Origin: Williamsia faeni
GTDB taxonomy: Bacteria > Actinomycetota > Actinomycetes > Mycobacteriales > Mycobacteriaceae
Direction: 5' to 3'
Length of the DNA stretch: 64,000 bases
NCBI GenBank assembly: GCA_003202005.1
Contig: QJJF01000002.1
Span: 682,001 to 746,000 of the forward strand
In this document: in pieces, positions 46,754 through 63,380 of the stretch
Position numbering within the stretch: position 1 is the stretch's first letter
Layout: every line of letters begins with the position of its first letter
Made by a program: the position numbers and the translations under genes
Notes under the pieces: model-generated
The model's database searches: none
Told to the model about the DNA's origin: nothing
What the model saw: only the letters and a program-made list of their open reading frames with translations

Positions 46754-47822
46754 CCTGTGGGGCGTGGTGCTCGCGGTGTTGTTGCTCGCCGGCAACGCTT
46801 TTTTCGTCGCCGCCGAGTTCTCCCTGATCTCGGCTCGCCGCGACCGTCTGGAAGCTCTGGAACACCAGGGCAAGCGCCGGGCCCGCACGGTCATCGAGGC
46901 CGGCGAGCACCTATCGCTGATGCTGGCCGCGGCGCAGCTCGGCATCACCATCTGTTCGATCCTGCTCGGCCGGGTCGGCGAACCGGCGATCGCCCACCTG
47001 ATCGAGAAGCCGCTGGAACTCGCGCACGTCCCCCACGAACTGCTGCATCCGATCTCGTTTACCCTGGCGCTGTCGCTGGTCGTGGTGCTCCACATCCTGC
47101 TCGGCGAGATGGTCCCCAAGAATCTCGCGCTGGCCGGCCCGGAGCGATCCGCCATGCTCCTGGTCCCGACACATCTCCTGTTCATCAAGCTCGCGCGGCC
47201 GGTGATCGCGTTCTACAACTTGATGGCCAATCTGTCGTTGCGACTGCTGCGGGTCGAACCGAAAGACGAACTCGACTCGACGGTCTCGGCCAATGAACTC
47301 GCGCAGATGCTCGGCGAATCCCGGCGCGAAGGCCTGATCGACGAAGAGGAACACACGCGCCTCACCCGTGCCCTCCAGACATCGGGCCGGACCGTGCTCG
47401 AGGTCGCGATACCGCTCACCGCGCTCCGCAGCGTCCAGGTCACCGCCGACCCGGTGACCGGCCGCGTCGGCCCGACTCTCGGTTCGATCGAGCAGGCCGT
47501 CATCGACACCGGGTTCAGTCGTTATCCGGTCCGTGGCACCGATGGCACCTACACCGGGTATCTGCATCTGAAGGACGTTCTCGACGAGATCCTCGACGAG
47601 GCCGTGGGACCCGACAGCATCATCGGTGTCGACAAGATCCACCCGCTACCCGTCCTCGCCGACACCACAGCGCTCGACGAGGCCACCAACGCCATGCGCC
47701 GCACCAGCTCGCACCTGGCCGCGGTGGTCGACGTCAACGGCCGCACGGTTGCCGTGGTTGCGCTCGAAGACCTCGTCGAGGAGTTCGTGGGGACGGTGCG
47801 CGACGAAACCCACCGCGTATGA
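46746..47822 (+). CDS. CNNM/HlyC-CorC family membrane protein, shorter paralogue
   Basis: 358 residues with the same membrane domain (GNAFFVAAEFSLISARRDRL, GITICSILLGRVGEP, HILLGEMVPKNLALAGPE) and a CBS pair, but no C-terminal CorC domain. Probably pairs with the longer upstream protein, as Rv1841c does with Rv1842c. Its last codon and stop overlap the start of the split downstream gene by four bases, so the three genes form one translationally coupled operon. Confidence 0.88.
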   Translation: MGDLWGVVLAVLLLAGNAFFVAAEFSLISARRDRLEALEHQGKRRARTVIEAGEHLSLMLAAAQLGITICSILLGRVGEPAIAHLIEKPLELAHVPHELLHPISFTLALSLVVVLHILLGEMVPKNLALAGPERSAMLLVPTHLLFIKLARPVIAFYNLMANLSLRLLRVEPKDELDSTVSANELAQMLGESRREGLIDEEEHTRLTRALQTSGRTVLEVAIPLTALRSVQVTADPVTGRVGPTLGSIEQAVIDTGFSRYPVRGTDGTYTGYLHLKDVLDEILDEAVGPDSIIGVDKIHPLPVLADTTALDEATNAMRRTSSHLAAVVDVNGRTVAVVALEDLVEEFVGTVRDETHRV

Positions 47823-48523
47823 CGTCCCACGGTGCGCTCGTGGACCGACTGGTCGAGTCGGAGTGGCAGGGCGCGGCGGCTGAGCATCGCCGGCGGATCG
47901 ATGAACTCCTGCAACGCCATCCGCCGCGGTTCACCCACCCCGATGCCGGTGATGTGGTGCATCCGGTGTGGGGTTTCCTGTTCACCTACTACAGCTTTCG
48001 GCCGGCGCAGCTGCGGCGCTGGCATCCCGGGTACGGGGTCGGATTACAGGGTGCGGCCGCCCGGCGCTATCTCGACTACCGGGGATATGTTCGCAGCGGT
48101 CAACTGGTGACCGTCGGCCGCGACCACCTCGACAAACGCCGCGACACCCTCGACTACATCATCGATCTGCTCGAGGCCACGGCGGGCCGGCCTCCTCGAC
48201 TGAACTGTTTCGGCATGCATGAGTGGGCGATGGTCTATCAGGCATCACCCGAGCAGATTCGTCACGCCGGTGTCCCATTGCGACTGAGCCCCGCCGAGAC
48301 CGACGACGTGGTCCGGTCCCAGCCACCGCGCTGCACCCACTTCGATGCCTTCCGGTTCTTCACTCAGCCGGCGCGGCCGTTGAATCTCACCGTGCTGGAT
48401 CGCGATTCGCAGCCGGAGTTCGAACAACCGGGCTGCTTGCACGCCGGCATGGATCTGCACAAGCTGCTAGGGGGTATCCATTCCCCCAGTTCAGAGCCTG
48501 TTTCGGCGGAGAGTGCCGCGTGA
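47819..48523 (+). CDS. Host gene 5' part fused to element sequence (target gene, truncated)
   Basis: A 234-residue chimera. Codons 1-212 are host sequence of a conserved actinobacterial protein commonly labelled 3-methyladenine DNA glycosylase: FLFTYYSFRPAQLRRWHPG, CFGMHEWAMVYQ, CTHFDAFRFFT and EQPGCLHAGMD. The last 22 residues (LHKLLGGIHSPSSEPVSAES and two more) come from the element. The family's C-terminal third, which begins LYKWAYKLAP, lies at 63126. Without it the protein is probably inactive. Its TGA overlaps the GTG of the element's own full-length homologue. The glycosylase label is a database habit; the biochemical function is not proven by anything visible. Confidence 0.85.
   Translation: MTSHGALVDRLVESEWQGAAAEHRRRIDELLQRHPPRFTHPDAGDVVHPVWGFLFTYYSFRPAQLRRWHPGYGVGLQGAAARRYLDYRGYVRSGQLVTVGRDHLDKRRDTLDYIIDLLEATAGRPPRLNCFGMHEWAMVYQASPEQIRHAGVPLRLSPAETDDVVRSQPPRCTHFDAFRFFTQPARPLNLTVLDRDSQPEFEQPGCLHAGMDLHKLLGGIHSPSSEPVSAESAA
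48440..48475 (+). other. attL
   Basis: Host sequence ending GCATGGAT is followed by the core CT and element sequence GCACAAGCTGCTAGG. CT is preferred over the shared ACAA because it restores the family-typical MDLYKWAYKL when the ends are joined. It also centres an AGC/GCT inverted pair, AGC seven bases left and GCT seven bases right of the core, in the reconstructed attP. Confidence 0.65.
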
Positions 48524-49383
48524 GCACGATCCTGTCGGCGACCGATTGGCGCGCACGTCGCGCCCGTCACCGCGACCGAGTGGCGGGGGCACTCGGCCCT
48601 TATCTCGACCGCAAGCAGCGAGGCGAGGCGCACCCCGTCATCGACTTCCTGTTCACCTACTACAACCACCGCCCGGCGCAGCTGGAGCGATGGCATCCGG
48701 GGTTCGGGGTGACGCTCTCCGAGGCCGACGAGTACGCCGCCAATCGTGGGTACCGCCGCACCGCTCACGGGGTCTCGGTTGACCCGGCCTTCCTCTCGCG
48801 CCGCCGCGAGACGGTGGCGTGGACCGCCGATCTGTTGGCTGCGACGGCCGCCCGACCAGCGCAACTCGGGTGCTTCGGGCTGCACGAGTGGGCGATGGTC
48901 TACCGGACGGATCGCCCCCGCCATGACGTACCCCTGCGGCTCGGCCCGGCGGGCACCGACGCTGTGGTCGAGGCGCTGCCGCTCCGCTGCACCCACTACG
49001 ACGCCTTCCGGTTCTTCACCGCCGCCGCCGCACCCCGCAACGTCGAGCCGCTGACCCGGGCGGACCAAATCGACCGGGAGCAGCCGGGCTGTGTCCACGC
49101 GACGATGGACCTCTATCGCGCCGCTTTCAAGCTCGCTCCCCTGCTGGATTCGCAGTTGACGTTCGAGTGTTTCGCGCTCGCGCTGGACGCCCGCGAGCTG
49201 GACATGCGCGCCAGCCCGTATGACCTGTCGGCGCTGGGCTACTCCCCCGTGCCCATCGAAACGCCCGCCGGTCGCGCCGAGTACGTGCGCCAACAGACAG
49301 CACTCGCGCAGCGGGGCACCGAATTGCGGGCGGCACTGCTGCAGAGGTGCAGCGCCCTGCTAGCGGCCGATACCGCCGATTAA
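48520..49383 (+). CDS. Element-borne full-length homologue of the disrupted host gene
   Basis: 287 residues, GTG start overlapping the TGA of the truncated host gene (GTGA), so it is read from the host operon and translationally coupled to it. All family motifs are present: FLFTYYNHRPAQLERWHPG, CFGLHEWAMVYR, CTHYDAFRFFT, EQPGCVHATMDLYRAAFKLA and ELDMRASPYDLSALGYSPV. Between VxxFLFTYY and WHPGxGVxL it matches the host copy at 20 of 27 residues, so it is a homologue and not a recent duplicate. At the position of the attB site it reads DLYRAAFKL instead of DLYKWAYKL, with a different nucleotide sequence. It presumably replaces the lost function. Confidence 0.85.
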   Translation: MSTILSATDWRARRARHRDRVAGALGPYLDRKQRGEAHPVIDFLFTYYNHRPAQLERWHPGFGVTLSEADEYAANRGYRRTAHGVSVDPAFLSRRRETVAWTADLLAATAARPAQLGCFGLHEWAMVYRTDRPRHDVPLRLGPAGTDAVVEALPLRCTHYDAFRFFTAAAAPRNVEPLTRADQIDREQPGCVHATMDLYRAAFKLAPLLDSQLTFECFALALDARELDMRASPYDLSALGYSPVPIETPAGRAEYVRQQTALAQRGTELRAALLQRCSALLAADTAD

Positions 49384-49416
49384 GCGCAGCACACCTAACG
49401 CCGCCCGGTCACGGGG

Positions 49417-50064
49417 TCACATCCCGGTTCCGGTGTTGTGATCCCACAAGGTCATGTCGGCGATGAGCCGGTCGGCGGGCTGCGCAGTCACCCAGAGCTC
49501 GGCTGTGTCGGCTGCGGAGGGGTCGGTCGCGATTTGCTCGGCAACCTCTGCGGCAAGCGGCGCGAGGCGGGTTGCCCATAGCCGATTGCGCAGGGCCTCA
49601 ACGAACGCCGCAAACTCGCGGACGAACTCGTCGTCGTCGGGTGGGCCGATCGACGAACTCACTCGCAGATGCAGTGCGATCACTGGTTGCGCCCCGCCGC
49701 GCCCCGCGAACTGCGCGGTCAGCTCGACGTCTTCGAACTCCGCATCACGGCGGTGCGCGACGTGGCCGTGTCGCCAATCCATGATCCGCTCGTGCAAGGC
49801 GAGGACGTCAGCACCGCCGACGTCGCGCAGCAGTGCATCGAAGTCGACGTTGCGCTTCCGCATACTCATTGCCATCCGGCCATAAGCGACGACCGCCGCC
49901 TCCCACAGCGCCCGGCGTAGGAAGCCGTTTTCGAGGTCGTTTGCCAGCTCGCGTCTCTTTTTCAAGGCCATGTCGGTTTGCAAGAGGTCGGACCAAACCG
50001 ACGCCCAACGGGTCAGGGAGACCACGGCACCGCCATCCGGGCTGGTGCGAAAGTCGCCGCTCAT
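49417..50064 (-). CDS. Hypothetical protein with HEPN-like RxxxxxH motif
   Basis: 215 residues, helical. The segment LHERIMDWRHGHVAHRRDAE has an Arg, five residues, then His, the Rx4-6H spacing of HEPN RNases, in the context (helix, RHGHVAHR) seen in AbiV-like and related proteins. No other domain is recognised. The gene lies at the element edge, divergent from a surface-protein gene and convergent with the replacement gene, the usual place for satellite cargo. Antiphage or toxin function is inference. Confidence 0.45.
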   Translation of the reverse strand: MSGDFRTSPDGGAVVSLTRWASVWSDLLQTDMALKKRRELANDLENGFLRRALWEAAVVAYGRMAMSMRKRNVDFDALLRDVGGADVLALHERIMDWRHGHVAHRRDAEFEDVELTAQFAGRGGAQPVIALHLRVSSSIGPPDDDEFVREFAAFVEALRNRLWATRLAPLAAEVAEQIATDPSAADTAELWVTAQPADRLIADMTLWDHNTGTGM

Positions 50065-50278
50065 TTGCCGGTTGTAAGTTCAGAAGTAAAGGCCGCCACA
50101 TCCACCCGACGATTGAACAGTCTGCCCATCCGATTACCGGCTCGACGCGCCGCAGCGGCGCTCGTTTCGCTTACCGTTGTTCGTTTTAGCGTGCAAAGTC
50201 AAAAGCACTGTGCGAGAGTTCACTTTTAGTTAATCCGTACACAGTTCAGTCAACGAGTCTGTAGAAGGATCAATTCAT

Positions 50279-50917
50279 ATGTCTCTACCTCCGTCCGAAC
50301 CTGAGCAGCCCAATGAAGGCGACCTCCCGTCGTGGCTCGAAGAAGCCAAGCCGAAAAAGCCGCTCTGGAAACGATGGTGGATCTGGGCGATCGCCACCGT
50401 GGTGGTCCTTACCGTGATCGGATCGATCGTCGGGACCGAGGAGACCAACGAGACGGCGTCGCCCGAATCATCGACCGCCGCATCGGCGGAGACGACCACA
50501 ACGACCGTCGAGACCACAACAACGACTGTCCCGACCACGACAACCGCCAAGACCACAACAACCGCCAAGACCACAACAACCGCCAAGACCACAACAACGA
50601 CCGTCCCGACCCCCGTTGTTGCCTCGGCTCCGTTAGTCAACCCGGGGCCATTGGCGTTCCGCAAAGGCCAGAACCCGGATATCGATTTCGAAGCCATTGA
50701 TATCGCCGGCGAGATCGGAGTCCCGGGAGAGGAAAAGGTCAACGGTGGACGGGTCGTATATAACGACTCCAACTGGACCATCGTCGCTCAATGCGAATCG
50801 ATGGTCGACAACGTCCTGAAAGTGGGCGTCGTCAAGGAGGACGAGAGATCGTTCGTCCCGGGCATGGCCATCACCAACAACACTTTCAGGCACGTTCTCG
50901 ACTGCCCCATCCCGTAG
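50279..50917 (+). CDS. Membrane-anchored protein with Thr-rich repeat linker
   Basis: 212 residues with GAAGGAT before the ATG. A Pro/Glu-rich cytoplasmic start is followed by a basic stop (KPKKPLWKRWWI), one membrane helix (WAIATVVVLTVIGSIVG), an extracellular linker of TTTTVETTTTTVP and AKTTTT repeats, and a C-terminal domain with QCESMVDNVLKVGVV and two Cys. The layout resembles actinobacterial surface proteins with glycosylatable Thr linkers. No known domain at the C-terminus. Superinfection exclusion or cell-surface masking is possible. Confidence 0.65.
   Translation: MSLPPSEPEQPNEGDLPSWLEEAKPKKPLWKRWWIWAIATVVVLTVIGSIVGTEETNETASPESSTAASAETTTTTVETTTTTVPTTTTAKTTTTAKTTTTAKTTTTTVPTPVVASAPLVNPGPLAFRKGQNPDIDFEAIDIAGEIGVPGEEKVNGGRVVYNDSNWTIVAQCESMVDNVLKVGVVKEDERSFVPGMAITNNTFRHVLDCPIP
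50541..50594 (+). repeat. Three exact 18-bp tandem repeats in the Thr linker
   Basis: CAACCGCCAAGACCACAA occurs three times in a row, each encoding the six-residue step TAKTTT. Exact DNA identity suggests recent slippage; linker length is likely variable between isolates. Confidence 0.9.
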
Positions 50918-50992
50918 CCGTTCCCGGCAACACCCCCCCGGTCTACAGGTCGTTGGCCCAATTCCGTTTTGGCACCTCACACCCCCGGTATG

Positions 50993-52588
50993 TCAATGGC
51001 GCATATGCATCAACGGGTCATAGCCACCCCTGGAACCATTGCGCCGCAGGTAATCCGATAGCGCCGTCACACTTGCGGGGCCTCGCCGGCCGAGTCGGGA
51101 GACGGCCCCCACGCCGGGGCGTTCGCCCAGCCTGGCGGTCAGCGACGGAGCGGCGAGCGTCATCCGGCCGCCCGCCGCGTGGGTGAGCACGTCGTGGGCC
51201 ACTACGAGGGCGGCGAGCTGGTCGGGCTGATGCTGACCCGCTTGCCAGGTGACAGCGGCCTGTTCGAGTTCCGGCAGATGACCGGCGATGCGGGCCGTGC
51301 CGACCTCCAGGCCCTGAATGAGGGCGGCCGATCTGGCGACCGCGTCACCACCGCCGCGGCCTGATCCCTTCGGCGGCCACGTCGTGACCCTGACCGGACG
51401 GTCGATCTTGGCCCGCCGCAGCGCCTCTCGGACGACACGCATGTAGGTCTCGCGGGCGGCGAAGCCCTCGACTGCGATCTCGGACGCCCCGACACCGACA
51501 GCAAGGTCCACCGCAGCCCGCGCCCACGCATCGGAGGTCATCGGGGCACTCACGTCGGCGATCACCGACACGACCCCGTCGGAGGTCATCGACGCGGCGA
51601 CGATGCCGCAGGAATCGCCGGTGCCGCTGTCGCTGGGGTCCACACCGACTACGGTCAGCACCGGGCGCGGCGGCGCGACCGGGAGACGCCAGGTGTCGAG
51701 CCACTCGCGTTTGATCAGGCCGCCCTCCGGGGCGGTCGGGACACCCTGGAATAGCGCGTGCCAGGTGCGGGAGCCGACGGCAGCCCTGATGTCGGCGAAC
51801 TGCTCGGGCGTCCGCCCCAGCGCCGAGGTCATGGCGACGCCCGGCTCACGGCCCAGCGCGTCGGGCACGCCGGGCTCAGCGATGGCCGGGATGTTGATGT
51901 GCTGCCACCGGTCAGGCTCCTCGGCGAGCAGCGTGCCGATCAAGTCCTGTTCGTGCCAGCGGGTGCCGATGATCACGCAGCTCGCGCCGGGGTGCAGCCG
52001 CGTCATCAGCGTCGAGCGGAACTCACGCAGCACGTTCCGGCGGTGGGATGCGGAGTCGGCGTCCTGGGCGTTCTTCACCGGGTCGTCCACCAGCAGCAGG
52101 TCGGCACCGAATCCGGTGATGCCCGACAGGATTCCGGCGGCGAGCAGGCCACCTGCGCGCCCGTCCACCCGCCACCGCCCGACAGCCGTCTTGTCTGCGG
52201 AGATGCCGAACCCCAGCGCCGCCGCGTGCTCGGCGATCAGCGCCCGGGCGGCGTGGGAGTGCTCCTGGGCCAGTGAGTCGGCGTAGCTCGCGAGGATGAC
52301 CCGGGCGTCGGGGTTGCGCGCCAGCGCGAACATCGTGCCCACCTGGGACACGAGCACGCTCTTGCCGGTGCGCGGCGGTGTCGTGATGATCAGCCGCCTG
52401 TCAGGGTGACGAATCGCGTCGGCCAGCGCGTCGCCGATCAGCGCGATGGCGGGCGTGATCCGGTACCTCGGCACGAGCCGCGCCGCCAGCTCGGCCGGAT
52501 TGTCCGGTCGCCGCGCCGCCCGGGCGACGGCCAGGGAGCGTGCAGCGACCAGGATCGTCACGGCTCGGGCGGTCGGGTCATCGGTCAT
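50993..52588 (-). CDS. Phage terminase large subunit (TerL)
   Basis: 531 residues from the ATG at 52588; the longer frame upstream overlaps the HEAGH gene and is not conserved. ATPase: Walker A LIITTPPRTGKSVLVSQV (about residue 69), Walker B ADLLLVDDPVKN (about 150), then CVIIGTRWHEQDL. Nuclease (RNase H fold): LTVVGVDPSDSGTGDSCGIV (about 311) with the catalytic Asp. Both halves look intact, so it could package DNA into a capsid. It has no adjacent portal gene. Confidence 0.88.
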   Translation of the reverse strand: MTDDPTARAVTILVAARSLAVARAARRPDNPAELAARLVPRYRITPAIALIGDALADAIRHPDRRLIITTPPRTGKSVLVSQVGTMFALARNPDARVILASYADSLAQEHSHAARALIAEHAAALGFGISADKTAVGRWRVDGRAGGLLAAGILSGITGFGADLLLVDDPVKNAQDADSASHRRNVLREFRSTLMTRLHPGASCVIIGTRWHEQDLIGTLLAEEPDRWQHINIPAIAEPGVPDALGREPGVAMTSALGRTPEQFADIRAAVGSRTWHALFQGVPTAPEGGLIKREWLDTWRLPVAPPRPVLTVVGVDPSDSGTGDSCGIVAASMTSDGVVSVIADVSAPMTSDAWARAAVDLAVGVGASEIAVEGFAARETYMRVVREALRRAKIDRPVRVTTWPPKGSGRGGGDAVARSAALIQGLEVGTARIAGHLPELEQAAVTWQAGQHQPDQLAALVVAHDVLTHAAGGRMTLAAPSLTARLGERPGVGAVSRLGRRGPASVTALSDYLRRNGSRGGYDPLMHMRH

Positions 52589-52703
52589 CGTCGTGCCTTT
52601 CCGTCTGCAACGGTCCCCCAACGCGGGCGGGAGGCGGCCCGGGAGGAGGGGACCGCTTCCAGGGGGCCCCGGGACCGGACCGCCACCGGCCCGCGTTGGA
52701 GTG

Positions 52704-53237
52704 TTACCGCATCCGCACCGGTGGGAGCGGGGAGATCCGGCGCGGCATGTGGCATTCGATCGTGCCGACGCTGCCGCAGAGGCTCGCGACCAGTACCGGC
52801 CGGTCACCCGCTGGGAAACCGAGGGCAGCGGTCACCCCGGCGTGGTCCAGGCGGCCGGTCGTGTTGAGCGCCAAGGCCACCCGGGCGATGTGCGGAAGCA
52901 GGTACTCCACCGCGCTCTCGATGCCCCTCGGCCACGGGTTGCCGCTGGCGATCAGCGCCGCGTGGTCGTGACCCGCGCAGTCACGGAACACGGCGCGTAT
53001 CTGACCGAGCGTCGGCAGATGACCGGCCCGGTGCCGGGCCTCGGCATACGGACCCGCGTACGAGACCTCGTGGACGGCACCGGGGCGGACGCCGGTGAAC
53101 TGGGTCAGCCCGCCGCCGACCGGGTCGAGGGTCACCTCGGTGATCGTTCCACCGAGGAGCACGGCGGCTACCGCGTGACCGGCCTCGTGCATCGCGGCGG
53201 CGGCTCGGTCGGCGGGTGTGCAGGTGAAGTAATTCAT
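52704..53237 (-). CDS. HExxH metalloprotease-like protein (M41-like)
   Basis: 177 residues. The zinc motif AAAAMHEAGHAVAAVLLGG starts at residue 13; the following ITEVTLDPVGGGLTQF resembles the FtsH peptidase fold. No AAA domain or membrane helix is present. Proteins like this recur in actinobacterial integrative elements and phages with no assigned function. Its start overlaps the stop of the upstream gene by four bases, linking it to the small-gene cluster above terL. Confidence 0.6.
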   Translation of the reverse strand: MNYFTCTPADRAAAAMHEAGHAVAAVLLGGTITEVTLDPVGGGLTQFTGVRPGAVHEVSYAGPYAEARHRAGHLPTLGQIRAVFRDCAGHDHAALIASGNPWPRGIESAVEYLLPHIARVALALNTTGRLDHAGVTAALGFPAGDRPVLVASLCGSVGTIECHMPRRISPLPPVRMR

Positions 53238-53869
53238 GACGCCTCTATTCCGTACTGGGCCAACGTCTTTCGGGCGTGGGACATGCGCTCCTGCGCCGCG
53301 CTGTCCTCGCGTGCCGCCGCTGTGACCTGCGCCTTCGCGGTGTGCCGGTCGATCCGGTCCAGTCTGGCGGTGAGGTCGCGGACCGCGACGGCGAAGGCGT
53401 GCAGCGCGGCGTCGACTTTCACCCGGCTCGTCGTCTTCCCGGTCGCGGTGGTGGGCGGTAGGCCGGACAGCACCGCCGCTGCCCGGGCCGCCAGCGCCTC
53501 GGACCTAGAGAGGAGTTCCGCGTCCCACGGCCCGGCGGCGAGCAGCGTCGCGACCGTCTCCGGGCGCAGGTCGGGCGGGTCAGGCAGCGGGTGCAGCGTT
53601 CGGAACGCCTTCGCGGCCTGCTGTTTGGCCTCGTAACTCAAGTGCTGGGTGAGCGCGGCGGACTCGCGTGCGAGCACCACGGTCTCGATCCGATCCAGGG
53701 CGCGCCAGCCCTCACGCAGCACCACGGTGACCTCATCGATCAACGTGGCAGGGTTGCGCAGCCGGGCGGTCCGTTCAGCGGTGTCGCCCAGCGTCTCGGC
53801 GATGATCGCCGGGAGGTCGAACCCCTCGGGTGCCCGGTCGGGCCGGGTGCGGCGCAGCAGGCGCGTCAT
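53234..53869 (-). CDS. Hypothetical helical element protein, 211 aa
   Basis: Nearly all-helical, rich in Ala, Arg and Leu, with FRTLHPLPDPPDLRPETVA as the only distinctive stretch. No domain recognised. Four-base overlaps at both ends show co-translation with its neighbours. Position between capsid-like and terminase genes fits a packaging or head-associated role, which is only a guess. Confidence 0.55.
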   Translation of the reverse strand: MTRLLRRTRPDRAPEGFDLPAIIAETLGDTAERTARLRNPATLIDEVTVVLREGWRALDRIETVVLARESAALTQHLSYEAKQQAAKAFRTLHPLPDPPDLRPETVATLLAAGPWDAELLSRSEALAARAAAVLSGLPPTTATGKTTSRVKVDAALHAFAVAVRDLTARLDRIDRHTAKAQVTAAAREDSAAQERMSHARKTLAQYGIEAS

Positions 53870-54204
53870 TCGGTCACCTCCGCTGTACTGGCAAGCCGGG
53901 AGGCCGCGTAGCCCAAGCCTTCGGCGAAGATGTCAAGGCTGCCACGCTCGTCCACCAGGTCGCGGGCTGACTCACGGATGCGGGCGGCGAGCAGGGTCAG
54001 CCGCGCCCCGAGTTCGTCAGGCGGTGCCGCCGTACCGGTCGCGTCGAGATAGTCGGCCGTCTGGAGCAGCGAGGACGCGGCGGCGGCGAGGGTGGCACGA
54101 GTCGCGTCCATCCGCCGCGCAGCGCGTGCGACCACCTCGCCCTCGATCAACGGTGGTGGGGCCGGCCGGGGTGCAAGGCACCGGGCGGTGCGCGGCGCGG
54201 TCAT
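53866..54204 (-). CDS. Hypothetical element protein, 112 aa
   Basis: Starts at the ATG at 54204 with GGAGG nine bases upstream. Helical, including RMDATRATLAAAASSLLQTA and RIRESARDLVDERG. No recognised domain. Overlaps both neighbours by four bases. Confidence 0.6.
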   Translation of the reverse strand: MTAPRTARCLAPRPAPPPLIEGEVVARAARRMDATRATLAAAASSLLQTADYLDATGTAAPPDELGARLTLLAARIRESARDLVDERGSLDIFAEGLGYAASRLASTAEVTE

Positions 54205-54458
54205 GGGGTCACCTCCAGTTCCTCGACCCGGCGGCGCAGCGCGGCGGTCAGGCTGTCGACCGCCTCGTCGCCGAGCGACCGGCGCGAGTCGTTGAGTGCG
54301 TCGATACAGCGGACGTAGTCCAGCGCACGCTCGCACTGGACAACATCGGGGTCGTCGTCGGCGCGACCTTGGCGACGGAGCTGGCCGAGCCGACCGGACC
54401 AGCGCGAGGCCGACCAGTGATCAGGATTTGTCGGTGGAGCTGTGGCAGTCCTGGGCAT
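54201..54458 (-). CDS. Hypothetical element protein, 85 aa
   Basis: Starts at the ATG at 54458; the longer frame to 54779 is a shadow of the divergent gene. Contains RALDYVRCIDALNDSRRSLG and a helical end LTAALRRRVEELEVTP. No recognised domain. First gene of the minus-strand run that leads through the HEAGH gene to terL. Confidence 0.55.
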   Translation of the reverse strand: MPRTATAPPTNPDHWSASRWSGRLGQLRRQGRADDDPDVVQCERALDYVRCIDALNDSRRSLGDEAVDSLTAALRRRVEELEVTP

Positions 54459-54510: not shown

Positions 54511-55281
54511 ATGAGCGAGAACACGATCCACACCACCGCGCTGCCCGTTGAGTACGTTGCCCCGTTGGTCAACCCGGCACCGTCCGGTCTGTACGTCGTG
54601 GCCACCGGCCCGCTGCCGCTGCCCGAGCACGCCTGGAGCGGTATCAGCATCAAGCCGACCAACGCGGGCGGTGGTTTCGGTACTTGGGAGATGGACCCGT
54701 GTTTCAACCCGCTGGACCCCGAGGCTCGGAAGGACGGGGAACGGGCGGCACCGCTGGACCCGTTCTTCCCGGTCACCACCTGGGGCTACGACGAATGTGA
54801 TCCCCAGGAACCGGAGGCTGACCTGCTGGCCCGGGCAGGCCAAGCCCAGCGCCTCGGCGAGCAGACGGCCATCGAGGCAGAGTTCGCTGCGCGGCTCATC
54901 ACAGACGCTGAGGACCTCGGGACGGTTGCCGATCTCGTGGGCGCGGTCGCGGTGCTGGAGGCCGCGATGGCGCAGCGCAAGCAGGTCGGCGTGATCCACG
55001 CGAGCGCGCAGTGGGCCGGGGCCGCGATGCGCGACAGGCTCGCCACCGGCTCACCGATAGCGCGGTCGCCGCTCGGTCACTCCTGGGCGTTCGGCAGTGG
55101 CTACGTTGCGGGGCTGGGTAATTCGCTGGTCATCACCGGCCCGGTGACGATCTGGGTGGGTGAGGTGTTCGAGCAGGCGGCCGTCGATCCGTACCGCACC
55201 GTGCGGGTCGCGGTGAAGGAGCGCGCCATGGCCGTCGGTTACGAGGCGTTGGCGTTTGAGGTGTCGATCAGCGGCGCGTAG
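54511..55281 (+). CDS. Putative phage capsid-like structural protein
   Basis: 256 residues. The order of features resembles actinophage head proteins: an early PVTTWGYDECDPQEPEADLL, a helix AQRLGEQTAIEAEFAARLIT, a mid-section VGVIHASAQWAGAAMRDRL, then LGHSWAFGSGYVAGLGNSLV and a final TVRVAVKERAMAVGYEALAF. I recognise the pattern rather than a named family, so the call is tentative. It is transcribed opposite to terL. If correct, the element could build its own (small) head. Confidence 0.4.
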   Translation: MSENTIHTTALPVEYVAPLVNPAPSGLYVVATGPLPLPEHAWSGISIKPTNAGGGFGTWEMDPCFNPLDPEARKDGERAAPLDPFFPVTTWGYDECDPQEPEADLLARAGQAQRLGEQTAIEAEFAARLITDAEDLGTVADLVGAVAVLEAAMAQRKQVGVIHASAQWAGAAMRDRLATGSPIARSPLGHSWAFGSGYVAGLGNSLVITGPVTIWVGEVFEQAAVDPYRTVRVAVKERAMAVGYEALAFEVSISGA

Positions 55282-55428
55282 ATCGCCACCCGAGCCGGGC
55301 GACGGTTGGGCCAAATTGACTCGGGCCCAGTACCCCTCGCATACCCTGACACTTGCCAGACGAACCGAACGCCCCACGCTGCACCGAACATATTGGGGCG
55401 TGACCGAACTGGAGGATCGATAACGCCG

Positions 55429-56013
55429 ATGATTGCCCCCGCACGCACCACCACAGCCGCCATCGCTTCCGTCGTCACCGTCGTCGTACTCGCAGTCGCG
55501 GGGTGCTCCTCGGACTCCGGCGACGACGCCGGCACAACAGCCACCAGCCAAGCGCCGCCAGCGGCTAGTTCCGTGACGCCAGCGCAGCAGACCAAGGAGG
55601 TCAAGGTCGGCGACACGTTCACCGTGTGGAACAAAGCCACCCAGGGATCAACGGCCGTCGTCACCCTGCAAGGCGTCGAAGTCGACCCTCCAACAAGCTG
55701 GACGTCTGCGAGTAAGCAGCCGCCACACTCAGTCGGGTTGCATGTGCTCATTGATATGACCTCGTCGTCGGCGCCGAACATCGTGTCGGGTAGCTTCGGG
55801 ATCAGCGAGGAGTTGCCGGGTGGGCTGACTGCGACCACCCCGGCCGATCAGAAGGCGAATGGTGGGTCGTTCACGGACGGACGCCCGAAAATCATCGAGG
55901 TGAAAAAGGGACAGAAGCAGGATGGGTGGCTGCTTCTAGCCGTCGATCAACCGGCCGCCACCCTGCTGTGGCCAACCTATCCGGGTACTGTCCGCATCGC
56001 CTATCCTCAGTAG
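55429..56013 (+). CDS. Secreted lipoprotein of the element (DUF4352-like)
   Basis: 194 residues. Lipoprotein signal with lipobox VLAVAGCSS, then a Ser/Thr/Pro-rich linker, and a beta-rich domain starting EVKVGDTFTVWNKATQGS, consistent with DUF4352/telokin-like lipoproteins. It would be exported and lipid-anchored. Phage-borne lipoproteins often block DNA entry by related phages, which is a plausible role here. Confidence 0.7.
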   Translation: MIAPARTTTAAIASVVTVVVLAVAGCSSDSGDDAGTTATSQAPPAASSVTPAQQTKEVKVGDTFTVWNKATQGSTAVVTLQGVEVDPPTSWTSASKQPPHSVGLHVLIDMTSSSAPNIVSGSFGISEELPGGLTATTPADQKANGGSFTDGRPKIIEVKKGQKQDGWLLLAVDQPAATLLWPTYPGTVRIAYPQ

Positions 56014-56103: not shown

Positions 56104-56132
56104 AGACGGTCCGACCCCGTACCGGACCGTCT
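56104..56132. terminator. Bidirectional hairpin between convergent genes
   Basis: AGACGGTCCG, nine bases, then CGGACCGTCT: a perfect 10-bp stem lying between the lipoprotein stop and the stop of the convergent recombinase gene. Confidence 0.7.
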
Positions 56133-56148
56133 AGCTGGCGATGGTCGG

Positions 56149-56889
56149 TTAGGCGCAGCCTTCGCGCAGTCGGGCCGCGTCCTGGCCGTGCTCGACCTGC
56201 CGCACTGTCGCTGGATACCACATGCCCCGGCCTCTCGCGGTCGGCACCGCATCGTCGTTGAGCGCCTTGGCGATTGCGGGATAGCTCAGCCCCGCCTCGC
56301 GGGCGTCGAGGATGCGTTGCACGACCGGCAGCGGCAGCACCGACGGGCGACCGAGGCGCACGCCCTGGGCGCGCTTCTCCGCCAGGGCTTCCCGGGTGCG
56401 CTGCCCGATCAACTCACGTTCGAGCTGGTTGAACACGGCCATGTTCTTCACCATCGCACGACCCATCGGGGTGCTCGTGTCGATACCCGACGTGTCGCAG
56501 GCGACGACGAACCAGCCCTCGGCCTCGGCTCGCGCAGTGAGTAGTTCGGTGTCTAGGGTCGACCGGCTGATGCGGTCGAGCTTCGCCGCGACAACCCCCG
56601 CCGCCCGATCAGCCTCGACCTCTGCAATCGCGGCAACGAATCCGGGCCGGGTGTCCATGAACTTCGCGCTGATGCCCTCATCGACGTGCCACGCGACGAT
56701 CTCCCAGCCGCGCCGCTCGGCCTCTGCGGTGATCGCTGCGCGCTGCGCGGCCAGGCCCAGACCCGACTCGGCCTGTTCCTCGGTCGACACCCGTAGATAG
56801 GCAACGACTTTGTCAGGCGGGGCGGTGCGGGCGCGGCGACGTTGTCGGCGGGGGCGGGGGCGGGGGCGATCGAGGGTGGTGGTGACCAT
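56149..56889 (-). CDS. Serine recombinase, resolvase/invertase type
   Basis: 246 residues from the ATG at 56889; an ATG at 56931 is also possible. An Arg-rich N-terminal extension (RPRPRPRRQRRRAR) precedes the resolvase catalytic domain: VVAYLRVSTEEQ with the nucleophile Ser at about residue 35, GVVAAKLDRISRSTLD, and MAVFNQLERELIGQRTREAL. A short DNA-binding tail has the helix-turn-helix GLSYPAIAKALNDDAVPT. It is too short to be a large integrase. Candidate jobs are dimer resolution or an internal inversion; no recombination sites are recognised. Confidence 0.85.
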   Translation of the reverse strand: MVTTTLDRPRPRPRRQRRRARTAPPDKVVAYLRVSTEEQAESGLGLAAQRAAITAEAERRGWEIVAWHVDEGISAKFMDTRPGFVAAIAEVEADRAAGVVAAKLDRISRSTLDTELLTARAEAEGWFVVACDTSGIDTSTPMGRAMVKNMAVFNQLERELIGQRTREALAEKRAQGVRLGRPSVLPLPVVQRILDAREAGLSYPAIAKALNDDAVPTARGRGMWYPATVRQVEHGQDAARLREGCA

Positions 56890-57005
56890 AGCCTTATTGT
56901 ATACGGTCGTTTTGTTTAAGGTACTGCTCAAGGCACCGACGAGTTGGTGTCGCGGCCCAGGTGACGGCCGGATTTTCCGTTGGCCAGGCCCCTAACCGTG
57001 CATTC

Positions 57006-58284: not shown

Positions 58285-58322
58285 CCGCGACTACCGGGCC
58301 GGGCTGCGGCTGCGATGACCGC

Positions 58323-59633
58323 CTACGGATCGACGGGCGTCAGCGGGTGGAACCTGTTGTCGTACGGATCGACCGGCGTCAGCGGCGCGACCTTGCTCGG
58401 GTCGTCGGGCTTGCCCGAGTCGACCCACCGCTCCCATGCCCCGGTGAAGGGAACCTTCGACAGGGGGGTGATGAACCCCCCTTCGCGCACCGCCGTCTTA
58501 TTCGTCCCGGCGGTGATCCGGCCCTCACGCCTGAGCCTGCACAGTGCGGTGATGATCCGCCCGACCTCGGTGTTGTACTTGTCCGAGCCGACATCGCCGA
58601 TACCGTTGCCGCGTGGCCGGCCGCCCTTGCGCGGGTCGGGCATCTCGACTCCCTCGATTCGCCCGTGCAGCCCTTTGGGGGGCAGCACCTGCCAGCGCAG
58701 CGTCTCGCGGGGGTATCCGTTCTCGTCGAGGACGGGCACCGTCTGCCCCTGGCTGCGTTCGGTCACCGGCGTGCTGGTCATCTCGAACACCCCCCAGCGG
58801 CGCAGGTTGTCGCGCTTGATCTCGTCATCGTCGTCATTGCGTTCCGGCTCCACCGTCTCCCGGCGCACCCCGCCGGGGCGGTCCTTGTGCACCCACAGCG
58901 ACGCCACCCCGCCGCGTCCCGGCGTGAACTGCCCGACCTTGAACACACGAACCATCGTTCCGTTGTAGATGCGGGTCTTGCCGTGCGCGCCGACCGGACC
59001 CATCCGGCGCGATTCGGCGTTCTTGGCCAGGTGGTCGATCATCAGCACCCCGGCACCGGAGCGGGCCACCGGATGCACCACGTCGGCGAACGCATTGGTC
59101 ACCTCGTCATCGCTGTTGGTGCTGGCACCCATCATCGGCAGCAGCTCGCCCACGCTGTCGTAGAGCGCCAGCGTCGGCTCCCAGCCGGGCAGCGCCCCGG
59201 CGACCGCGATCAGGTACTCGCTGTCGAGGGGTTCCACGTACAGGAACCGCCCGGCGTCGGCCAGCATCTCGGCGGGCACCCCCATCAGGCGCAGGCGCTC
59301 GCAGGTCTGCTCGACCCCGTTGTGGTCCATGTCCACGAACACGAACCGGCCCCCCTCCATCAGCACCTCGGCTCCCGCCGCCAGCGCGATCCAGGTCTTG
59401 CCCGTCTCGGGGTCGCCGAACAGCAGGTTGGTCTTGCCGGGATAGAGCAGGCAGCGGTTATCGGTGCGCCGCAGCAGTGTCGGCACCGCACGCGGGGCGC
59501 TATCGCCGCGCAGCACCGCGCCGATGTCCACGAACAGGCCGCCCGGCCCGGCCCCGCCCGGCCCGTCGTCGTCGGGACCGGGCGGGGCCTGGCCGTTGGT
59601 GGACGGGTCGGTGTGCTGACTACTTGCGGCCAC
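58323..59633 (-). CDS. RecA-fold replicative helicase/ATPase (RepA-like)
   Basis: 436 residues. Walker A TNLLFGDPETGKTWIALAAG (about residue 73), a DMDHNG motif typical of RepA/AAA_25 proteins, and GAGVLMIDHLAKNAESRR as Walker B/motif 3. The C-terminus has a winged-helix-like region (VGRIITALCRLRREGRITA) and ends in a duplicated PLTPVDP. It would unwind or load at the neighbouring iterons. It overlaps the primase-like gene by 14 bases. Confidence 0.8.
   Translation of the reverse strand: MAASSQHTDPSTNGQAPPGPDDDGPGGAGPGGLFVDIGAVLRGDSAPRAVPTLLRRTDNRCLLYPGKTNLLFGDPETGKTWIALAAGAEVLMEGGRFVFVDMDHNGVEQTCERLRLMGVPAEMLADAGRFLYVEPLDSEYLIAVAGALPGWEPTLALYDSVGELLPMMGASTNSDDEVTNAFADVVHPVARSGAGVLMIDHLAKNAESRRMGPVGAHGKTRIYNGTMVRVFKVGQFTPGRGGVASLWVHKDRPGGVRRETVEPERNDDDDEIKRDNLRRWGVFEMTSTPVTERSQGQTVPVLDENGYPRETLRWQVLPPKGLHGRIEGVEMPDPRKGGRPRGNGIGDVGSDKYNTEVGRIITALCRLRREGRITAGTNKTAVREGGFITPLSKVPFTGAWERWVDSGKPDDPSKVAPLTPVDPYDNRFHPLTPVDP
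58324..58385. repeat. 23-bp direct repeat at the end of the helicase gene
   Basis: TACGGATCGACGGGCGTCAG at 58324 recurs at 58363 with one change over 23 bp, encoding the repeated PLTPVDP at the helicase C-terminus. It abuts the iteron gap. Confidence 0.7.
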
Positions 59634-60717
59634 GAAGGCCTCCCTTGCTGGTTCGCCGCCCGGTGGACTGTTTCCGGCCGGTCGGGGCTGCGCGAACGGC
59701 CGGCCGCTTCCGGCCCTCGAACGCGAGACTGCCGCCGAGGTCGAGGCCGTCGATGGCCGTCGGGATGCTGCCGCCGTACCGCAGCACCGTCACGGCCTGG
59801 AAGCGGGTGATCGTCCGGGTGGCGTGCGTGCGCAGAAACTCCTCCATCGGCTCCCCGGCGTTGTCCGTCCACACGTAGAGCGGCGGGTCCGGCGAGGCGA
59901 ACACCGGGCAGCCCGGTTCGTGGCCGGTCGCACTCTTGGGCGAGCTGTGCTGTCCCGGCGCGGTGAAGATCGGGCACCCGCAGCCCTCGAACCTGCCGGT
60001 GGCCCACCAGCCGTGCGGGCTGAGGATCTCCTCCCAGGTGACGCCCGCGCCCCACGCCCTGATCCGTTCGCCCAGCGTCACGTCCCGCTCGGCCTGCTCT
60101 GCCCTGCGGCTGCGGGGCAGCAGGGTGAACAGCTCCCTCGGTATCCCGTACGGGGGCCGGGTCAGCTCCCAGCCGACCCTGTTGCCGGGTGCCGGGGGGA
60201 GCAGCAGGTGCTCGGGCCACCAGGCGATCCGGTATCCGTGCTCGCCGGGAACGGTCAGCGCGCCGGGTGTCTCGGGCAGCCGCCACCGCACCGTGTCGGG
60301 CACCGCGAACACGTAGTGATCGCTGCGCGTCCAGGTGCCGTCGTCGAGTCGTCGCACCGGGCGCAGGCTTGCCGCAGCGGCCTCGGGCGGGGGGTGCATA
60401 TCGGCAAGGAACCGCGTGCGCTGCGCTGCGCTGTCGCACTCGACCACCACCACCGGCCAGCCCGGGTCCTCAGCGATCAGGGCCAGGTTAGGCGCGTGCT
60501 CGATCCGGTCGCCCAGGTACGCCCGGCGCGGCGTCGGGGTGTGTGCGTGCTCCTCGTGCAGGGGCACCACGAACACCAGCTCGGGGCGCAGCTCGCCGTC
60601 GAGTTCGATGACCCTCGGAAACGGTACGAGTATTTCCGGCGTCCCGGTGTCAGCGGCACGGTCACCGGCCGCCGTCTCGGGTGCCTGGTCGGGTGCTGGT
60701 TGGGGAGGTAAAGTCAT
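59620..60717 (-). CDS. Primase-associated protein of the element
   Basis: 365 residues. Residues about 225-320 (VTWEEILSPHGWWATGRFEG, PGQHSSPKSATGHEPGCPVF, PLYVWTDN, ITRFQAVTVLRYGG) follow the pattern W-x-x-I-L-x-P-x-G-W ... S-A-T ... L-x-V-W/F-S ... F-x-A found between the primase and helicase halves of actinophage and prophage primase-helicases. No clear archaeo-eukaryotic primase catalytic motif is seen in the N-terminal part. It looks like the front half of a split primase-helicase whose back half is the downstream RecA-fold gene. Confidence 0.55.
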   Translation of the reverse strand: MTLPPQPAPDQAPETAAGDRAADTGTPEILVPFPRVIELDGELRPELVFVVPLHEEHAHTPTPRRAYLGDRIEHAPNLALIAEDPGWPVVVVECDSAAQRTRFLADMHPPPEAAAASLRPVRRLDDGTWTRSDHYVFAVPDTVRWRLPETPGALTVPGEHGYRIAWWPEHLLLPPAPGNRVGWELTRPPYGIPRELFTLLPRSRRAEQAERDVTLGERIRAWGAGVTWEEILSPHGWWATGRFEGCGCPIFTAPGQHSSPKSATGHEPGCPVFASPDPPLYVWTDNAGEPMEEFLRTHATRTITRFQAVTVLRYGGSIPTAIDGLDLGGSLAFEGRKRPAVRAAPTGRKQSTGRRTSKGGLRGRK

Positions 60718-60816
60718 GTGTACTGGTTCCTTTCAATGTCATGGGTGCTGGTTTCGCCTGGGTGGTGCCGGGCGGCGTAGGCCTCGACTGTGGTCGGGGC
60801 CTTTGCGTTCCCGGCG

Positions 60817-61053
60817 TCACCGGCCTTGGGCCGCAGCCGATCCCGGCGTAGCCCTCGGCACGACGGTTCGAGCGGTGAGGTAGTCACGCACGTCATCGGC
60901 GCTGTAGCGGATGCGCCGCAGGCCGAGCTTGATGAACGGCAACCCCACACCGCGTGCGCGATCCGCCCGCAGCGACTCGGTGGACATGCCGAGCCATTGC
61001 GCGACTTCGGTTTCGGTGAGCAGCACGGGCAACCCGGCGGCGTCGATAGTCAT
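60817..61053 (-). CDS. Excisionase-like helix-turn-helix protein
   Basis: 78 residues with AAGGA before the ATG. A MerR/Xis-type DNA-binding domain is clear: LLTETEVAQWLGMSTESLRA and LPFIKLGLRRIRYSADDVRD. Such proteins direct a serine integrase toward excision or act as early repressors. Located between the replication genes and the integrase. Confidence 0.75.
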   Translation of the reverse strand: MTIDAAGLPVLLTETEVAQWLGMSTESLRADRARGVGLPFIKLGLRRIRYSADDVRDYLTARTVVPRATPGSAAAQGR

Positions 61054-61148
61054 GGCGGAGCGTTCCTTCTGGTCGGGTGTGACGACACGCTACGGAAGGA
61101 CCGTGCAGACGCCTGGGGCGTGACGAGAGGACCCCGGTCGTGCCGGAA

Positions 61149-61277
61149 TCACCAGCGGCTGCGGGGCCGGGTGAACAACGCCCGCAGCGCATCCCGCTGC
61201 CCGTCGGTCAGGGCCGGTGCCCCGGCCGCCACCCGCTGCGCCCATGCCGCGATCTGCGCGGCCTCTCGCGGGGTCAC
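61149..61277 (-). CDS. Tiny protein, 42 aa, coupled to the gene upstream
   Basis: GTG start overlapping the upstream TGA (GTGA). It contains VTPREAAQIAAWAQRVAAGA then ALTDGQRDALRALF. The LTxxQRxxLxALF motif is the same as in the preceding 81-residue protein, so the two are probably related or interacting. Confidence 0.55.
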   Translation of the reverse strand: MTPREAAQIAAWAQRVAAGAPALTDGQRDALRALFTRPRSRW

Positions 61278-61519
61278 TGGGTGGCCTCGACCGGCAGGGC
61301 GAAGAACAGCGCGCCTATGGCGTGGCGCTGGGCGGTGGTGAGGGGCGGCGACTCGGCGAGCGCCTTCTGTACGTGATCGGTGAGCTTCAGCGCCCGCATG
61401 TTGCGCCGGGCGGCGATCAGTTTGGGGTCATCGGGTGCGCGGTCGCGGCTGAGCGCGGCGACGCGGGCGCGCTCGGAACGCCAGTTGGCCGTGCGGACGT
61501 GAGTGTCGGGGTGTTCCAC
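61274..61519 (-). CDS. Small element protein, 81 aa, LTxxQR motif
   Basis: Features ARRNMRALKLTDHVQKALAE and PPLTTAQRHAIGALFFALP. This is a recurrent small ORF next to integrase/excisionase genes in actinobacterial integrative elements and plasmids; its function is unknown, possibly regulatory. The gap to the integrase (61520-61718) holds short inverted repeats but no gene I can support. Confidence 0.6.
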   Translation of the reverse strand: MEHPDTHVRTANWRSERARVAALSRDRAPDDPKLIAARRNMRALKLTDHVQKALAESPPLTTAQRHAIGALFFALPVEATQ

Positions 61520-61718
61520 GGGATATGCCTTTTATCGGGGTGTGGTGATACCCCTGACGGCCTGGTATCCGTCTGCGTGTATCTCGCGTTCCGGGTACCA
61601 GGACTGCCCGGTAACCCCGCACCTTCTACCATACACGAGCAGCGACGAGCGCGCCGCTGCTATCTCACTGTGGCACAGGCGATTACACGCTTAGCGTGCA
61701 TTGTGAGCGCCCCTCGGT

Positions 61719-63095
61719 TCACCGCTTCCAGTCGAGGACGATGAGGTTCGGATCGAAGCCCCGGCCGCGCCCGGCAGGGTTGATGGTGACGGTGGCGAGG
61801 GTGTCGATGACAGCCCGCTGCCGGTCCAGGCCCAGCCCGTCGAACGCCGCCGCGACATCGTCCGCGCCGATCACGCCCGCGAACACCCGCGCCCGCTCGG
61901 GCTCGACCAGCCGAGGCTCGATCACCGCCAGCTTGTCCTTGAGTCGTTTTGTCCCGGTGCGCATTTGCGATTCGGTCAGCTCATCATCAGTGAACATTGC
62001 TGCGAGCGTGTCGAGTTTGGACCGCAGCAGCGCCGCCTCGTCGCGCAGCGCGGCGCGGGTCGCGTCGTCGTCGTCATCGTGGGCGATCACCGCCGCCGCG
62101 TCGGGCCGACTCAGCCGGGCCACCACCGCCGCCTGCACCGCTGCGTCCACCCGTTCCAGGTTCCGCGATACCTTCATGCATCCCGGGTTCTTGCAGAGGT
62201 AGATGAGCGCACCCGCCGGGCGCGAGGTGGTCCGTCCCGATCCCATCGGCCCGCCGCACGCCCCGCACCGCACGATCCCGGTCAGCAAATACTTTCGGCC
62301 GCGTGTCGGGCCGCACCGCCGCGCCGGATCGGACAGCACCGCCACGACCTCACGCCAGGTGTCGGGGTCGACTATCGCGGGGTGGTCGGCTTCCGCGACG
62401 ACCTTGCCGTGGTAGCTGCGGAGACCGGCGTTGCGGGCGTTGAGCAGCAACTGCCGCACCTGGGCCGAGCGCCAGCGGTTCCCGAGCGTGGTCGGGAGAC
62501 CGGCGGCGTTCCAGGAGGTCGCAATCGACCCGAGCGACGCTCCCCGCAGCACCTCGCTGTACGCGGCCTTGATGGCTGCGGCTTCGGTTTCGTTGAGGCT
62601 GTCATCGGCCTCGAACCCGAACGCCCGGCGCGGTCCCCACCGCTTACCCGACTCGGCGCGCTGGCGTCCGGCGCGGCGCTGCCGTGCGCCTTTCCGGTCG
62701 ACCTCCGAGCGGGCCACCGCCGTCTTCATCCGGGCGAACAGCCGCCCGCCGTCGGTGGTCAGGTCGGCCTCGCCGTTGGCGGTGACGATGGCCAGCCCCC
62801 GGCCCTCGGCGGCGTCGATCCAGTCCTCCAGTTGCCGGGGCTGCCGGGTGAGCCGATCCAGGTCCCAGCAGATCAGCGCGTCGAACTCCCCCGACTCGTA
62901 CGCCGTCACCAGCGCGTCGTATCCGGGCCGGTTCTTGCGGGTGTCGCTGGCGCTGATCGAGTTGTCGACGTATTCCCCGACAACGTCCCAGCCGCGCTTC
63001 TCGGCGATGGCCTGGCAGTCCTCTCGCTGCCGCGAGACGGCCAACTCTTCGCCGGTCTTGTCGAGGGAGATTCGCAGGTAGAAGGCGGTGCGCAT
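61719..63095 (-). CDS. Large serine recombinase (element integrase)
   Basis: 458 residues from the ATG at 63095; the frame beyond it crosses attR into host DNA. The resolvase domain has MRTAFYLRISLDKTGEELAV with catalytic Ser10, VDNSISASDTRKNRPGYDAL and ICWDLDRLTRQPRQL. The recombinase domain has AAIKAAYSEVLRGASLGSIA and LGNRWRSAQVRQLLLNARNA. A zinc ribbon (VRCGACGGPM ... CKNPGC) and a coiled-coil (ALRDEAALLRSKLDTLAAMF) follow. This is the complete layout of Bxb1- or phiC31-type integrases. It starts 31 bp from the attR core. Confidence 0.95.
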   Translation of the reverse strand: MRTAFYLRISLDKTGEELAVSRQREDCQAIAEKRGWDVVGEYVDNSISASDTRKNRPGYDALVTAYESGEFDALICWDLDRLTRQPRQLEDWIDAAEGRGLAIVTANGEADLTTDGGRLFARMKTAVARSEVDRKGARQRRAGRQRAESGKRWGPRRAFGFEADDSLNETEAAAIKAAYSEVLRGASLGSIATSWNAAGLPTTLGNRWRSAQVRQLLLNARNAGLRSYHGKVVAEADHPAIVDPDTWREVVAVLSDPARRCGPTRGRKYLLTGIVRCGACGGPMGSGRTTSRPAGALIYLCKNPGCMKVSRNLERVDAAVQAAVVARLSRPDAAAVIAHDDDDDATRAALRDEAALLRSKLDTLAAMFTDDELTESQMRTGTKRLKDKLAVIEPRLVEPERARVFAGVIGADDVAAAFDGLGLDRQRAVIDTLATVTINPAGRGRGFDPNLIVLDWKR

Positions 63096-63109
63096 GGTAT
63101 ATATCTTAC

Positions 63110-63145
63110 GCGACTTAGCTGCGACCTCTACAAATGGGCGTACAA
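63110..63145 (+). other. attR
   Basis: Element sequence TTAGCTGCGAC, core CT, then host CTACAAATGGGCGTAC. Only scattered identity with attL beyond the core, as expected for serine integrases. Confidence 0.65.
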
Positions 63146-63380
63146 ACTGGCACCGCTGCTGCCGTCGGAATTGATTGCCGACGCCTTCGACCTGGCACTG
63201 CAACATCGTGAGGTCGACATGCGGGCCAGCCCGTACGACCTGTCCGGTTTCGGTCTGGCACCGATCGCGATCGAAGGGCCGACGGGTCGGGCCGAATATG
63301 TCCGGATGCAGTCGGAGTTGGGCCGCCGCGCTCAGTCCCTGCGGACCGAACTCATCGACCGATGCCGCCGCCTGCCCTGA
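63126..63380 (+). pseudogene. 3' part of the split host gene
   Basis: Eighty-five codons including stop that continue the host gene from 48454: LYKWAYKLAPLLPSELIADA, EVDMRASPYDLSGFGLAPI and GRAEYVRMQSELG match the C-terminal third of the family and of the element copy. The frame is open into element DNA upstream but has no start of its own. It would become functional only on excision. Confidence 0.88.

Follow-up and report, generated by a model that had tools for sequence, protein, structure and literature searches.

A serine-integrase element splits an operon gene and carries a full-length homologue of it

The window analysed here is a stretch of 64,000 nucleotides from Williamsia faeni contig QJJF01000002.1 (genome G000, family f1), and it contains a 14,671-bp element (48452-63122) with a serine integrase, inserted at codon 212 of a conserved operon gene that we call the target gene. 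The operon runs from a guaB1-type gene through two CNNM/CBS genes and the target gene to malate synthase G. The guaB1-type and both CNNM/CBS genes were named by family scans, while malate synthase G was scanned in a relative, G008, and its start in the window, near 63500, was recognised by eye. The two CNNM/CBS-domain membrane protein genes occupy 45359..47822 on the forward strand (Pfam CNNM and CBS), and the second of them (46746-47822) overlaps the start of the target gene as ATGA. From this overlap the truncated target gene extends over 47819..48523 (+) to a TGA at 48521-48523, as defined by its open reading frame (ORF) and by junction comparison, and the resulting 234-aa product consists of 212 native codons followed by 22 codons encoded by the element. 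The displaced native 3′ part lies at 63123..63380 (+), begins with the attR core GA (63123-63124) and has no start after integration. When the flanks are joined computationally at GA (48452-48453 / 63123-63124), a single in-frame protein of 296 aa results.

Between the two halves lies a complete second version of the gene (48520..49383, +), which is 53.4% identical to the joined native protein. This copy has a GTG start, encodes 287 aa, has the same orientation as the target gene and begins 66 bp after the core, such that the TGA of the truncated gene overlaps its start codon (GTGA). A GGAG, read by eye, lies 8 bases upstream of the GTG. All 88 columns conserved in 44 other sequences are kept in the copy, including 24 beyond the break that are lost from the truncated product. 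The N half, the copy and the 3′ part are the only target-gene matches in the genome. A preliminary description of this DNA had already proposed a split after codon 212, a full-length homologue inside the element and a GTGA overlap, and the ORFs, both junctions and the single in-frame join confirm each of these. It was also right that the element splits the gene, although its right boundary needed correction: the native gene runs to 63380 but the element only to 63122, and alignment indicates that the integrase most likely starts at 63095. The left boundary is not to the right of 49383, beyond the copy, since the core is at 48452.

The attL core dinucleotide, GA, was located by comparing both junctions with empty sites and lies at 48452..48453 (+), the first two bases of codon 212. 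The junctions of a related element in G008 share ATGGA and those in the window share only GA, which makes GA the simplest common core. The attP arm on the copy side (48454..48473, +) is identical to the distal arm of the G008 element at 13 of 20 positions, and the arm on the integrase side (63103..63122, +) matches its integrase-side counterpart equally well (13/20). Random pairs share about 5 positions on average and reach 13 or more in 0.03% of draws. The window element's own two arms match each other at 8 of 20 positions, and other arm pairs at 8-14. By sequence, the element thus has the 2-bp core common to attL and attR and the pseudo-symmetric attP arms of a serine-integrase element. Its integrase, of 458 aa (61719..63095, −; phrog_95), contains the Resolvase, Recombinase and zinc-ribbon domains of a large serine integrase.

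The copy and the native gene differ in ancestry

The copy has a GC content of 70.6% (85% at third positions), similar to the 70.4% (88%) of the integrase, and the native half has 66% (78%). In our tree the joined native gene groups within its own genus (100/100), and the copy falls outside the host genus, where it groups with genus code g9 (96/91). A larger quick tree that includes sequences of family f16, and in which the joined G637 row has two surplus residues at the join, again contains the grouping of copy and g9 with a Shimodaira-Hasegawa-like approximate likelihood ratio (SH-aLRT) of 94, not starred. Topology tests rejected placement of the copy with the genus clade (approximately unbiased p value, p-AU, of 0.012) and rejected the copy and its own native gene as sisters (p-AU 7.7e-92). 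By plain identity the closest sequence to the copy is one from g23 (70%), and at the DNA level the copy and the native gene share 66% identity over the longest aligned stretch. These results indicate that the window copy stems from another lineage than the host genus.

No homologue of the copy was found in phage records, and among viral contigs only the half-gene of contig L088, described below, was matched. Plasmids yielded five target-gene homologues with 50-59% identity, and "3-methyladenine DNA glycosylase" is the annotation beneath one of them. Scans of the target protein against Pfam, NCBIfam and PHROG gave no match, nor did PADLOC, and comparison with solved structures gave a match at chance level only. 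An AlphaFold model had a mean predicted local distance difference test score (pLDDT) of 40.9 and was not used.

The insertion site in relatives

To place the insertion among its relatives, we compared eight other members of the genus. Seven have a single gene and a site with no insert; in one of the seven, G006, the gene is in two abutting pieces, to which the window N half is 58% and 81% identical. Identity of the N half to the gene is 64-70% in six genus members, and the displaced 3′ part shows the same range to the 3′ parts of all eight.

In the eighth member, G008, the gene is split at the same codon and core by the related element noted above (L025 2485-13201; 10,716 bp), whose integrase is 54-56% identical to the window integrase and whose flanks join in frame to give 300 aa. 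Its genes include an integrase, HNH, terminase, portal, scaffold, capsid and connectors, with no tail genes among the scanned ORFs, and we take it to resemble a capsid-forming phage satellite. Viral contig L088 carries the N half of a target gene, which the tree assigns to the g29 type (100/98), and a related integrase (48-50%) comes immediately after it; the C half is not on the contig. When up to 10 kb on each side of 58 genome and 11 viral integrase loci were examined for a target-gene homologue, only L088 had one. A further insertion, of 13.2 kb, splits the gene in G454 of family f14. Its integrase is only 25-27% identical to the three query integrases, and its junctions share ACCTGT, which by eye begins at the second base of the GA position.

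These insertions differ in orientation. The window integrase abuts attR, while those of G008 and L088 abut attL. If the window and G008 elements both use GA as the core, reading attP from the integrase side gives GA for the former and TC for the latter. According to the title of Ghosh 2003, as cited in PMC3783163, the central dinucleotide alone sets the orientation of Bxb1 integration. In G008, L088 and G454 the integrase is on the attL side and no copy was found. It is suggestive, and fits all four insertions, that the integrase-first orientation occupies the place behind the truncated gene and that the orientation in the window frees this place for a copy.

The preliminary description had named homologues in tandem in genomes lacking the element as evidence that would speak against an exchange. 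No such pair occurs in the eight genus members. We also searched a family sample of 351 genomes, in which the target gene is present in 322, and an order sample of 249 genomes that partly overlaps it, in which the gene is present in 183. Genomes with more than one match were counted from the result tables by reading. The family sample has 16 of these, including G000 and G008, and none of the other 14 contains two full-length copies. We therefore rejected tandem duplication as the origin of the window layout, since the relatives examined lack tandem pairs and the copy is not sister to the native gene.

The same codon in a second family

The order sample has nine genomes with more than one match, and we examined the eight besides G000; G454 is described above, and G473 belongs to family f16. 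A scan of 23 genomes of the genus of G473 then added G637, in which an N half of the target gene is followed by a full copy 33 bp past the core, then by about 0.4 kb, and then by the C half. The insert is 1,317 bp, its flanks are common to relatives, and the copy is 62% identical to the split gene around it. In G473 itself, a decayed N part ends at the same Met-Asp-Leu and a full-length gene again starts 33 bp past the core; the 3′ half of the cut gene was not found. A third genome with more than one match in the genus scan, G643, carries a single gene in two pieces that overlap.

Between the two f16 copies identity is 87%; they share 54-56% with the window copy and 62-68% with the genes of eight genus members, which share 77-89% among themselves. 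In the tree a long branch leads to them from within the 12 sequences of f16 (99). This position is distant from that of the window copy, so separate captures in f1 and f16 are the best reading. Both f16 copies have open reading frames and keep 73 of 75 conserved columns. No integrase of the tested families was detected in the G473 stretch by tblastn, and the G637 insert is too short for one. Since the cut half in G473 has decayed while the copy is intact, a new allele may be able to outlive its element. Both copies also have Cys-His right after the core codon, beside the invariant Met-Asp. None of 59 other sequences has this pair, and at the same position Leu and Tyr are each present in 56 of the 59. 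The change would alter the copies' own attB and hints at protection from the integrase, though the two share a single ancestry and the change is no proof alone. A similarly recoded attB in the window copy was considered and found no support beyond background: 16 of 40 positions are mismatched, compared with 6-9 of 40 in eight genus natives, and the background is set by the 66% DNA identity of copy and native gene over the longest aligned stretch.

Other multi-match genomes contain displaced fragments of a different kind. In G185 (L098 3555-10760) and G195 (L099) the neighbouring genes look native to g27 (74-88% to other g27), and the gene in the target slot looks foreign (60-65% to g27, 71% to g23 and 67-69% to the window copy). 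Past unrelated cargo, roughly 6 kb further downstream, there is a g27-like 3′ fragment (76-88% to g27). By these identities we interpret G185 and G195 as a further replacement of the target gene via a different junction. G134 (L100 5786-8710, reverse complement) has a genus-typical full-length gene and a second 3′ fragment about 1.9 kb downstream. The displaced 3′ ends in these three genomes were rejected as same-core cases, as the fragments start about 32 codons downstream of the core. In G506 (L228, reverse complement) about 8 kb and several other ORFs separate a 5′ fragment (2955-3089) from the full-length copy downstream of it (11030-11875), a possible relic of exchange.

Gene content of the element

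Downstream of the copy the element encodes a hypothetical ORF with a weak match to a PHROG of unknown function (49417..50064, −), a small superinfection-exclusion-like protein (50279..50917, +; phrog_4980, E 9.6e-09) and a terminase large subunit (50993..52807, −; phrog_38, E 2e-86). Three ORFs follow at 52704..54336 (−), one of which (52704-53237) is M50B-peptidase-like, and then two at 54511..56013 (+), the first belonging to phrog_779 of unknown function. A second, short serine recombinase (56149..56931, −; Pfam Resolvase) precedes two small phage ORFs (57006..57769, −; phrog_27872 and phrog_645). Family scans identified AAA ATPase and primase/polymerase-like replication genes at 58323..60717 (−), and a helix-turn-helix (HTH) excisionase-like gene lies at 60817..61519 (−) with a small ORF that is common to the G008 element (62%). 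No capsid gene was seen among the scanned ORFs. An IMG/VR record corresponds to the window from 63095 down to 50279, with 100% identity over the 11,374 bases compared, and the copy is outside this record. Judged by its genes, the element appears satellite-like or is a defective phage. A syntenic element is present in Mycolicibacterium brisbanense (L107), where the short serine recombinase has a 52% relative. Beside that element, an ORF at L107 9043-9453 resembles a rifampicin ADP-ribosyltransferase.

Exchange of the target gene and alternative explanations

We propose that a serine integrase inserts a satellite-like or defective phage element at the GA in codon 212 of a conserved operon gene. 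The sequence shows that integration cuts the native gene and that the foreign copy occupies its operon slot in the same direction, and the computed in-frame join predicts that the native frame would return on precise excision. Transcripts of the copy would start at the promoter of the host operon, its translation would depend either on coupling or on a ribosome-binding site of its own, and its product would perform the native protein's job, such that the gene is exchanged and not abolished. Carriage of a copy may be favoured by a lower cost of integration, the host could retain the element's allele after the element is lost, and the exchange may have arisen separately in at least two families at codon 212. 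We consider it probable that the element exchanges a host operon gene via a foreign full-length copy behind attL and that such exchange occurs in at least two families. The exchange in the window is well supported by anatomy and descent as they are read from the sequence, recurrence is supported by layout, and the benefit of exchange is something we infer. The preliminary description had set exchange apart from destruction of the gene and from repair of its 3′ end, and this distinction is supported by the anatomy, the empty sites, the ancestry of the copy and the layout in G637 and G473. As a plausible but tentative extension, the att codon may be a natural gene-swapping site, where integrative elements captured whole versions of their target gene at least twice in different families and set them behind attL, such that integration overwrites the host allele in the operon, where a copy can become fixed after the element decays, and where the copy may need an altered attB against its own integrase.

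Several observations weigh against this model or narrow it. Among 58 chromosomal homologues, 46 have an in-frame start overlapping a TGA under a generous criterion that accepts any such upstream in-frame start, so the GTGA of the copy was probably inherited. When spacers were shuffled, coupling arose again in about 17% of trials, and whether the native frame reaches the copy's TGA depends on spacer length and stops. For these reasons we do not accept the GTGA overlap as evidence that the arrangement is adaptive. A search of 47700-50300 gave no sigma-70-like promoter, which leaves room for promoters of other types, and given the probable inheritance of GTGA, the earlier statement that the same host promoter and coupled translation serve the copy is retained only as what we infer. 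Regarding cost, just one of the four integrase-bearing insertions (G000) has a copy: the G008 genome has no further target-gene match, no copy was found in the L088 contig, and none was found in the G454 insert. In addition, the target gene went unmatched in 29 of the 351 genomes of the family sample. Together, the copy-less insertions and the match-less genomes show that the gene is dispensable at least sometimes, and they weaken the suggestion that integration is cost-free. In f16, it is the junction codon that points to delivery of the copies by an integrase. Over the common stretch the G473 copy is 74-80% identical to genus natives and its decayed fragment 66-72%, while in DNA the fragment is 74-78% and the whole copy 70-72% identical to them; the split gene of G637 (73-75% to natives) is also outside the eight natives in the tree. 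As these identity and tree results are mixed, the label "native" in f16 rests on position, with the G637 halves around the insert, more than on ancestry. Finally, G473 and G637 may stem from one event; their flanks are 75-88% identical, but G555, which is 89% identical to G637 upstream, has a single match.

The copy-less insertions and match-less genomes would also be expected if the copy were incidental cargo, a neutral passenger acquired at the element end with no selected role in replacement. The M. brisbanense element fits this explanation as well, as it has no target-gene homologue in the 21 kb examined, and the one full-length match in its genome is at another place. A neutral passenger accounts poorly, however, for cargo homologous to exactly the gene that the element interrupts, complete, in the same orientation and adjoining attL, and for a layout that recurs in G637 and G473 with open and conserved copies, no integrase found nearby and a decayed cut half in G473. 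We regard incidental cargo as unlikely, although it is the strongest of the alternatives. A different role is conceivable in which the copy mainly alters a trait, providing a variant protein with changed activity while disruption of the native gene removes competition. The copies are indeed divergent from the native genes (53% identity in the window, 62% in G637), and the Cys-His pair is confined to the f16 copies, but the conserved columns kept by the window copy and by the f16 copies argue for the same basic activity, and we find this role quite improbable. Still less credible is a tandem pair that existed before the element inserted into or beside it. Such a pair would leave two homologues side by side in the integrated state, as is seen in the window, and for G473 taken alone, where the 3′ half was not found, a duplication followed by decay of the first gene is possible. 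In the window and in G637, however, the copy lies between the two halves of a split gene, the genus members and multi-match family genomes examined have no tandem pair, and a sister relationship between window copy and native gene is rejected. Exchange of the target gene by a foreign copy remains the explanation we prefer.

Comparison with known systems

Integrative elements are usually classed as target-destroying or end-rebuilding. PMC4482086 describes dusA islands that supply a new 5′ end, and PMC10111431 names icd and tRNA cases in which the end of the target is restored. As in those systems, target function could survive integration in the window and a displaced fragment marks the far end of the element. 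End-restoring elements give only the missing gene end, whereas the window element gives a complete second gene and the native one stays broken: its frame runs through the 22 foreign codons past the break and then stops.

The closest precedent is in PMC10111431, which cites Mageeney 2020 (NAR 48:4052) and in which islands were searched for homologues of the gene that they integrate into. According to that paper, attP usually has replacement sequence, and a late gene, once captured, may take over from the one that was interrupted; its example, 11capE, interrupts the capsid gene of a prophage and brings a capsid gene of its own. The window element likewise disrupts a gene and has a homologue of that gene inside its boundaries. 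11capE sits in a helper prophage gene, whereas the window element is proposed to exchange a host operon gene, has its copy at attL and has relics in a second family.

"Regulated gene integrity" is a term from PMC10111431 and PMC12424338, the latter of which reports that 43.4% of islands sit in protein-coding genes. As described there, precise excision would restore the broken gene, which the computed join predicts here. Unlike in those elements, the host has an intact homologue whether the element is integrated or excised, and regulation of integrity would not be required.

With regard to element type, PMC10654092 presents candidate mycobacterial phage-inducible chromosomal islands (PICIs), some with serine integrases. 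The window element is like these islands in size and in its integrase, excisionase-like, primase/ATPase and terminase genes, and its scanned ORFs comprise an integrase, a regulator/excisionase and a replication module without a full set of virion genes. The G008 element additionally has portal, scaffold, capsid and connector genes.

PMC5704250 and PMC12884075 added nothing on replacement, and our searches of open-licence literature did not turn up an account of whole-gene exchange recurring at a single att codon. The G637 and G473 layout extends the finding beyond the earlier observation, as exchange at codon 212 looks recurrent. If true, recurrent whole-gene exchange with a copy that outlives its element would be a route for in-place replacement of core operon genes and would account for some foreign genes in conserved operons. 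Empty, disrupted and exchanged sites, together with relics, provide a comparison set at the same codon for an outcome that differs from both destruction of the target and rebuilding of its end.

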